Positions 27,760 through 30,092 of a stretch of 64,000 nt of DNA are shown here, one piece after another (positions within the stretch are counted from its first letter, which is position 1; each line of letters begins with the position of its first letter). The notes under the pieces are model-generated. The model was not told where the DNA came from and made no database searches. It saw only the letters and a list, made by a program, of their open reading frames with translations. Origin of the DNA: Truepera radiovictrix DSM 17093 (GTDB taxonomy: Bacteria; Deinococcota; Deinococci; Deinococcales; Trueperaceae). The stretch covers positions 1,741,001 through 1,805,000 of the forward strand of contig NC_014221.1 in NCBI RefSeq assembly GCF_000092425.1, read 5' to 3'. The position numbers and the translations under genes were made by a program.

Positions 27760-29466
27760 GTGCTGAACAACGCCAAGCGGTCTTGGGGCCGGCTCGCAGC
27801 GCGGGTGCTGCCGCGGCTACTGTTACCGTGGCTGCTCGGATGCGGCGCCGCGTTCGCACAGTTCGAGGTGGAAGTCGAGGTGGTCTTCGGCTTCGAGGGT
27901 GAGATCGTCGCCGACGCCTGGAACCCCGTACGCGTGAGTTTGCGCGACGCGCCCGACGCCGAGCTGCTCCTTGAGCTCGACCGCGGCACGCTGCGCGGCG
28001 GCGAACGCTGGCTGCGTTTTCGCGCCCCCTTAGCGGGCGGCGGTGGACGCCGCACCTTTGAAGAGGTCATCTTCATCCCCGCCTGGCAGCAGTTCGTGTG
28101 GTCGGTGCGCACCCCCGACCGGGTGCTCGCGAGCGGGAGCGTCGAGCGGCGGCGCCTCGACCCGCGCCCCCTGCACCTGGTGCTGTCGCGCACCCTGGGC
28201 GCCGAACGCGACCTCTTCGACGCCGACGCGCGGGTGCTCGAGGTCTACGGGGCGCTGCCGGAGCGCGCGAGCGCCTTTGACGGGGTGGCCACCGTGGTCG
28301 TCGGCGACACCTTGACCCCCTCCTCGCCCGCCGCGCTCGCCGCTGCCGCCGCCGGCGGCAGCACCGTACTGCTCTTAGAGCCCACCGGCAACGCCCCGCT
28401 CCCCGAGGGCTACGACGCCCTCTTCGGGGCGCCCCTGCAGCGCCTAGGGGCGGGGTGGCTCGCGCGGAGCGAACGCGAGGAGGCCGCGGCGCTCCTCGCG
28501 GGCTTGCCGCGCCTCGAGCGGCGGACGCTCGAAGCCGCCCTGCTCACCCCCGACCTCGCCGCTCCCCCCCCGCACCTGCCCCCCAGCACGCTCCTCTGGG
28601 CGCTCTTCGGCTACGCCCTCGCCGCCCTTTTGCTGGTGCGCTACGGGCGCCTACCGGGCCTCTGGAGCGCGCTGCTGCTCGCCACCGTGGGGAGCTTGGC
28701 GGGCTTTTGGGCGCTGCGCGGCGAGGAAGTGGTGCAGGAGCAGGCGCGCACGCTCGTGCTCGCCGGCGGCCCCCTGGCGCAACGGCTCGAGGGGCGCGGC
28801 CTCTTTTCGCCCGCGCGGCGCGACCTGACGCTAGACACCGAACGTTACGGCCTCCTCTACCCGCTCGACGAGGTGGCTTCGCCGCGCACGGTGCCCCCGA
28901 GCGCCGTGCCCACGCTGAGCCCCTCGGGGCTCAGGCTGTCTCTCGGACGCTACGAGGCGCTCCTCCTCGCGCGCCGCCCCGAGCTCGAAGACGCCCGCTT
29001 CTACTGGCGCGGAGATGAACTCATCAACGCCGGCAGCCGCGCTCTTGAAGACCTCTTTATCCTCGGCCGCGGCCAGCAGAAGGCGCTCGCGGCGGACTCG
29101 AGCCTCCGCCCCGAACTCGGCGACAACCTCCCCCCCGACGCCTACACCCCGCTCTTACCCCACCTCCCCCGCGGCAGCGCGCTCGCCCGCGACGGCGACC
29201 TCGTCCTCGTGGCGCTCCCTACGGTTAGCGGCTCCAGCCGCCGGCCTAGCGGCCGTGACCGCTCGGTTAGCGGCTCCAGCCGCCGGCCTAGCGGCCGTGA
29301 CCGCTCGGTTAGCGGCTCCAGCCGCCGGCCTAGCGGCCGTGAGTACGAAGTTGCGCGTAGCGACCGCTCGGTTAGCGGCTCTAGCCGCCGGCCTAGCGGC
29401 CGTGACCGCTCGGTTAGCGGCTCTAACCACCGGCCTAGCGGCCGTGACCGAAAGAGGCTGCCGTGA
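27760..29466 (+). CDS. Membrane-anchored exported protein with C-terminal tandem repeat
   Basis: A 568-residue protein with a signal peptide (LLLPWLLGCGAAFAQ), a large extracytoplasmic beta-rich part (VVFGFEGEIVADAWNPVRVSL), and two membrane helices near residues 270-325 (LLWALFGYALAALLLVRY and ALLLATVGSLAGFWAL). I do not recognise the family. From residue 489 to 564 the sequence changes abruptly to five copies of VSGSSRRPSGRDRS, encoded by 42-bp DNA repeats that kept the frame. The preceding GDLVLVALP reads like a natural end of the protein. The stop overlaps the next gene's GTG (GTGA). Confidence 0.75.
   Translation: MLNNAKRSWGRLAARVLPRLLLPWLLGCGAAFAQFEVEVEVVFGFEGEIVADAWNPVRVSLRDAPDAELLLELDRGTLRGGERWLRFRAPLAGGGGRRTFEEVIFIPAWQQFVWSVRTPDRVLASGSVERRRLDPRPLHLVLSRTLGAERDLFDADARVLEVYGALPERASAFDGVATVVVGDTLTPSSPAALAAAAAGGSTVLLLEPTGNAPLPEGYDALFGAPLQRLGAGWLARSEREEAAALLAGLPRLERRTLEAALLTPDLAAPPPHLPPSTLLWALFGYALAALLLVRYGRLPGLWSALLLATVGSLAGFWALRGEEVVQEQARTLVLAGGPLAQRLEGRGLFSPARRDLTLDTERYGLLYPLDEVASPRTVPPSAVPTLSPSGLRLSLGRYEALLLARRPELEDARFYWRGDELINAGSRALEDLFILGRGQQKALAADSSLRPELGDNLPPDAYTPLLPHLPRGSALARDGDLVLVALPTVSGSSRRPSGRDRSVSGSSRRPSGRDRSVSGSSRRPSGREYEVARSDRSVSGSSRRPSGRDRSVSGSNHRPSGRDRKRLP
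29222..29450. repeat. 42-bp tandem repeat inside coding sequence, five copies
   Basis: Copies start at 29222, 29264, 29306, 29369 and 29411. The third carries a 21-base insertion (GTACGAAGTTGCGCGTAGCGA) that also keeps frame. Copies 1-3 are identical over their shared part; copy 4 has one change and copy 5 a few. Each unit contains the hairpin GCGGCT-CC-AGCCGC and the self-complementary GGCC..GGCC block. All length changes are multiples of three. Confidence 0.9.
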
Positions 29467-30092
29467 ACGCGCAGCAGGCGCCCGGAACGGGTCTTGGCGA
29501 CCTGCTAACGCGCGGCGATACGCTGCAGCTGCTCATGGCCTTTTTCGGCCTCCTGCTCTTTGCCGTCGCCATCACCTGGCCGACCGCGCCGGGGCCCAAC
29601 GACAGCTGGTACACCCTCGTTCAGGTAAAAGCCGGCGCGCTGCTGCTGTTGAGCGTCGGTTACGGCGGGAGCGTCGCGCTGGCGCCCCGAGCGGCAAGCT
29701 GCGCCGCGCTGGGCGTTCCGCTCGTCTTTTGGGCGCTGGGGCTCCCCTTCGAGCTCACCACCTACGCCGCCACGCACCCCGAAGCGCCCCTCTGGTGGTC
29801 GCTCGTCACGAGGCCGCTAGGGGTGCTCGGCTACTTCGGCGTCGGCCTCGTCTGCGGGCGCGCGCTGGCGCGGGCGCGGGCGGCGCTGCCGCTCATCCCC
29901 CCCCTCGTTTTGGTCGGCACGATCAGCTTCGACGTCTGGCTCGGACGCGCCGTGCTGAGCCCGGTCGCGGTCGCGGGGGGGGTCTCGCTCCCGCACGTCG
30001 GCGCCATGGCCCTGCTCGGCGGCCTGACGCTCGTTCTGCTGACGCGCGCGCCGGCGCACCCGGCGGGGCATAATGAGATCCATGCAGATTAG
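29463..30092 (+). CDS. Polytopic membrane protein, middle gene of operon
   Basis: A 209-residue protein with about six hydrophobic helices (LLMAFFGLLLFAVAITW, LLLLSVGYGGSVAL, ALGVPLVFWALGLPFEL, PLGVLGYFGVGLVCGRALA, LIPPLVLVGTISFDVW and ALLGGLTLVLL). I do not recognise the family. It starts with GTG overlapping the upstream TGA by a base pair, so translational coupling is likely, and it overlaps the next gene by about 20 bases. The three genes probably form one membrane assembly. Confidence 0.75.
   Translation: MNAQQAPGTGLGDLLTRGDTLQLLMAFFGLLLFAVAITWPTAPGPNDSWYTLVQVKAGALLLLSVGYGGSVALAPRAASCAALGVPLVFWALGLPFELTTYAATHPEAPLWWSLVTRPLGVLGYFGVGLVCGRALARARAALPLIPPLVLVGTISFDVWLGRAVLSPVAVAGGVSLPHVGAMALLGGLTLVLLTRAPAHPAGHNEIHAD

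Follow-up and report, generated by a model that had tools for sequence, protein, structure and literature searches.

The window, that is, the whole stretch of 64,000 nucleotides analysed here, corresponds to C1:1741001-1805000 of the single chromosome (C1) of the radiation-resistant bacterium Truepera radiovictrix, whose 3,260,398 bp match the length reported for strain RQ-24 (PMC3072082). At positions 29222-29450 it carries five copies of a 40-nt palindromic unit at the 42-bp spacing given by the original prediction, and we refer to these and related units as family A. The array is in frame near the end of ORF 27760-29466 and encodes VSGSSRRPSGRDRS; as had also been anticipated, a 21-bp insert, located in the third unit, keeps the frame. 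This insert is not a local accident, because the same dimer with its spacer occurs at C1:383905-384007 with 96% identity. The 16-nt core CCGGCCTAGCGGCCGT has five mismatch-free occurrences, all within the array, and the 18-nt sequence GACCGCTCGGTTAGCGGC has four, versus 0.33 expected even when up to three mismatches are allowed; the recurrence in the array is far beyond chance.

Table 1. Features of the array and its surroundings (window positions), other host genes, and related loci (chromosomal positions, prefixed C1)
Feature	Position	Strand	Remarks
Host ORF (window protein), 568 aa	27760..29466	+	signal peptide and two membrane segments by eye; units read in frame +2
Unit 1, family A (CGGTTA / hairpin / hairpin / TGACCG)	29222..29261	+	R1 64.1 bits
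Unit 2, family A	29264..29303	+	R1 64.1 bits
Unit 3, family A	29306..29342	+	outer stem split by the 21-bp insert
21-bp insert GTACGAAGTTGCGCGTAGCGA	29343..29363	+	common to dimer in DdrA/Rad52-like gene
Unit 4, family A	29369..29408	+	R1 64.4 bits
Unit 5, family A	29411..29450	+	hairpin 1 partly decayed (TCTAACCAC); R1 58.6 bits
Next gene	29463..30092	+	GTG start overlaps host stop (GTGA, 29463-29466)
Host: Rad52-family protein resembling DdrA			frame -0
Host: NfeD			frame +2
Host: (S)-ureidoglycine aminohydrolase			frame -0
Host: DeoC/LacD-type aldolase			frame -2
Host: metallo-beta-lactamase-fold protein, two sites			frame -2 (site 1), +2 (site 2)
Host: luciferase-domain protein			frame +2
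Host: SDR protein, C-terminus			frame +0
Host: IS3-type transposase			frame -0
Host: ValRS			frame -2
Type B repeat loci	C1:2933148-2933265; C1:2205812-2205876; C1:1740674-1740787; C1:867181-867276
Y1/IS loci	C1:600741, 1012653, 2939273, 1283072; C1:603839, 672179, 697337

The body of the host ORF matched no Pfam or NCBIfam family, and homologues of it were present in 33 of 61 genomes. Homologues ending near an ...ALP motif had been proposed as a point of comparison, and the nine examined stop 4 to ~16 residues past an ALP-like motif; seven of these nine share the Truepera arrangement in which the stop codon and the start of the following gene overlap. The original prediction had pictured an intergenic repeat that expanded into the gene. 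However, the GTGA overlap is retained as in most homologues, so the array lies a few codons ahead of the native stop, and elsewhere the family also occurs in frame in the middle of genes. The array thus did not arise by read-through from an intergenic region.

Fold and reading frames of the unit

The hairpins noted in the original prediction are present but are not two separate structures: the 40-nt unit forms a three-way junction in which a 6-bp outer stem, CGGTTA/TGACCG, encloses two 5-bp hairpins. In a gap-free alignment of 11 units from the same genome, two-sided changes were found in 9 of 16 pairs; shifting the pairing by 1-3 columns reduced this to 2-3. We then scored 22 distinct units in a structural alignment made by hand, because MAFFT misplaced hairpin 1 of the class with a three-base loop. 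Standard pairs made up 344 of 352 pair cells (97.7%), and there were 797 pairwise double changes, where shuffles averaged 161 and never exceeded 250, although an alignment fitted to the fold favours it in such pair scores. The aligned units start with CGGTTA or AGGTTA and end with TGACCG or TGACCT. A T.G pair in the outer stem was kept in 21 of the 22 units, each read on its proper strand, indicating that the element has polarity.

All six relevant reading frames had been described as open, but this does not hold for two of them: stops close frames +1 and -1 in 15 of 15 units checked, and the other four are open in nearly all. The host genes use all four stop-free frames (+0, +2, -0 and -2) and never the closed two. 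If every frame were tolerated, the absence of the closed frames would have a probability of ~0.01 by chance for 11 sites; the sites are few, and any insert retained within a gene would be expected to show such an absence. This frame use is what blind insertion produces once bad frames have been weeded out. Because the same DNA is read in four open frames, it is the DNA and not the peptide that is conserved.

These observations bear on whether the repeat peptide is functional, for example as a beta-roll or as a surface or binding tail, and is selected as protein. If the two predicted segments span the membrane, the tail would be located outside it, and the match of the tail to the Pfam ice-binding beta-roll model (29222-29450) reaches 29.7 bits, just under the cut-off of 30. 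This match is based on V, S and G recurring with a 14-residue period and is probably an effect of composition and period. Homologues of the window protein lack the repeat tail, and the same repeat peptide, whose presence in distant homologues the original prediction had regarded as incompatible with its view, was not found in them. The four frames of the same DNA give unrelated peptides in different hosts, and the frame pattern argues against selection for one peptide. We consider a selected peptide very unlikely.

Dispersed copies and their host genes

The search for further units revealed a dispersed family rather than an intergenic repeat grown into one gene. Model searches detected at least ~30 canonical family-A units at no fewer than ~17 sites in T. 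radiovictrix RQ-24, a census that is a lower bound because the searches score best candidates only. Tandem groups of 2, 3 and 5 units occur. Identical 40-mers lie at 469734, 469776 and 1532496, at loci more than 1 Mb apart with unrelated flanks.

Slippage alone, copying a palindrome that had arisen by chance at the gene's 3′ end and without involvement of a mobile family, would account for near-identical units at a clean 42-bp period and for the copy number in the window. It would not account for the family, with its compensatory changes and with a dimer and spacer shared with a distant locus. Purely local expansion is refuted by the dispersed copies, and we regard it as the least credible of the explanations weighed here.

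At least 10 genes carry family-A units in frame (Table 1), and two short ORFs (469412-469909 and 2937024-2937455) are uncertain further hosts. The Rad52-family protein resembles DdrA. Comparison of the aminohydrolase with its D. radiodurans homologue 1SFN revealed a gap of exactly 14 residues. The genome contains no second copy of the IS bearing the insert that could serve as a DNA-level empty site, and the IS3-type transposase was therefore compared at the protein level with three plasmid-borne homologues, relative to which its QCW...WDITKL is split by exactly 14 residues (42 bp). In ValRS, about 41 (~40) extra codons come between residues that lie nearly side by side in the Thermus enzyme (1GAX). 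The genome has no other ValRS gene, so the cell very likely makes a working enzyme that contains the insert. More generally, the in-frame units apparently leave their host genes undestroyed.

Copies at C1:867300, 736673 and 2118780 lie between genes. At C1:736673-736731 the units are tandem, 30 bp long, and combine the family-A outer stem with one hairpin only; the neighbours are the end of an acyl-CoA-synthetase-like gene and a stretch that on visual inspection looks like a cobalamin riboswitch and has no Rfam match at gathering score. These intergenic copies, the conserved fold and the retained T.G pair would fit elements that are primarily RNA or DNA regulatory structures (terminator-like, stabilizing mRNA or binding protein) kept by selection at their sites. 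Against this, units occur in both orientations relative to host genes, many lie within coding sequence, and the elements have no match in Rfam. Family A also had no match in 109 of 110 other genomes of the class, including one of the same genus, and this absence from relatives argues against a core function. We judge a primarily regulatory role unlikely.

The single weak match in the remaining genome reads as ordinary coding sequence. Weak model matches in relatives had E-values of 2e-4 to 0.5, which are rough for both RNA models owing to short calibration; the best six and one more were ordinary coding sequence, and we took them as chance.

Spread and nesting

Our preferred reading, with a probability of roughly 0.78, is that the window array groups in tandem several copies of a dispersed palindromic element that genes tolerate, 42 bp long (the 40-nt three-way junction plus 2 nt), that this element spread by insertion, and that the peptide is a by-product and not a selected feature. 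Family A probably moved as a non-autonomous mobile element served in trans, perhaps by an enzyme that acts on single-stranded folded DNA. Because one insertion lengthens the DNA by 42 bp and four of the six frames are without stops, insertions into genes can survive as 14-residue inserts. The surviving copies would sit in tolerant places, with selection removing bad frames and positions. In the window gene, a unit would have landed a few codons before the stop and then multiplied to five copies, presumably by slippage or unequal recombination.

Terminal inverted repeats, a criterion for MITEs, are present as the outer stem, which is paired in nearly all units. No consistent target-site duplication was recognised in the flanks of the occupied family-A sites. 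The genome contains 11 genes for Y1 (IS200/IS605-type) transposases. As candidate partners these were set aside, the ends of the IS200/IS605 copies inspected, a subset of all copies, being unlike family A. Seven of the Y1 genes are equally scoring, encode 145 aa and are IS200-like (~574 bp), with four compared copies identical or nearly so, and three IS605-like copies are identical. Such identity points to recent transposition in this genome.

Older elements hold related ones in their hairpin loops, and in ValRS this nesting reaches three levels. A repeat of ~70 bp, type B (GCTCACAGGGGC...GAGGCTGAGTG), lies in the second hairpin loop of a family-A unit in all four of its copies. Parsing by eye placed type C in family-A loops at three loci (ValRS, 2118 kb and 2933.4 kb) and type D in type C loops at the first two of these. 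The in-frame ValRS segment of 123 nt (C1:2933960-2934080) folds as A enclosing C enclosing D. At 2933.1 kb, a neighbouring unit of the tandem provides an empty site for comparison, which shows that the insert sits in mid-loop with no duplication beyond 1 nt. Nesting may reflect targeting of loops or the copying of composites already formed. A bolder and rather doubtful proposal is a self-nesting branched element, in which a structure-recognising enzyme would insert further three-way junctions where existing ones expose single-stranded loops (A holding C, C holding D, and A holding B), and this tree-like growth would carry protein inserts into essential genes such as ValRS. If true, self-nesting would be a mode of mobility that targets a fold and not a sequence.

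Comparison with known palindromic elements

A literature search, whose coverage excluded most subscription papers, returned no description of the element for Truepera. Several known classes of short palindromic repeats resemble it in part. PARCELs (PMC2996958) are likewise tandem palindromic coding repeats, often in membrane-protein genes, but they encode an amphipathic protein motif of 25 residues that occurs across many taxa, whereas the family-A peptide varies with the frame and the DNA fold alone is kept. The enterobacterial RU small mobile sequences, as outlined in PMC2759123, are similarly MITE-like and sometimes intragenic, but measure 103-168 bp in contrast to the branched 40-nt unit.

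The GTAG/CGTC REPs, including intragenic ones (PMC3733652), are short palindromes (20-40 bp) that also form dimers and clusters and in some cases lie inside genes; the intragenic examples listed in 2013 include DNA repair and tRNA synthetase genes (PMC3733652), and neither Truepera nor Deinococcus appears in the main text of that paper. A REP of this class is a tagged single stem-loop. Family A has no GTAG or CGTC end tag and is branched, and is thus not a GTAG/CGTC REP. No RAYT-type gene linked to family A was found among the Y1 copies whose ends were inspected.

The closest parallel is with the Rickettsia palindromic elements (RPEs; Ogata et al. 2000, 2002, as presented in PMC10969869), which are dispersed palindromic DNA found in frame in unrelated protein genes and apparently tolerated there. 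Family A likewise is a palindromic repeat dispersed in one genome and inserted in frame in unrelated genes whose homologues lack it. By description rather than sequence, the two differ: RPEs are ~150 bp long, a length that family A does not reach, and belong to an alphaproteobacterium (PMC10969869), whereas family A is a 40-nt three-way junction with a 42-bp period, often in tandem and with nested copies in its loops, in the Deinococcota. Family A works like RPEs with a different architecture. A 2024 review presented the high frequency of palindromic in-frame inserts as peculiar to Rickettsia and a similar process elsewhere in prokaryotes as conceivable (PMC10969869). Our results suggest that a separate phylum reaches the same outcome with a different, branched element. 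Exact 42-bp inserts, the occupation of every stop-free frame and of no other, and an insert in an essential single-copy synthetase make it directly testable in a cultivable bacterium whether selfish DNA gives rise to new segments of proteins.
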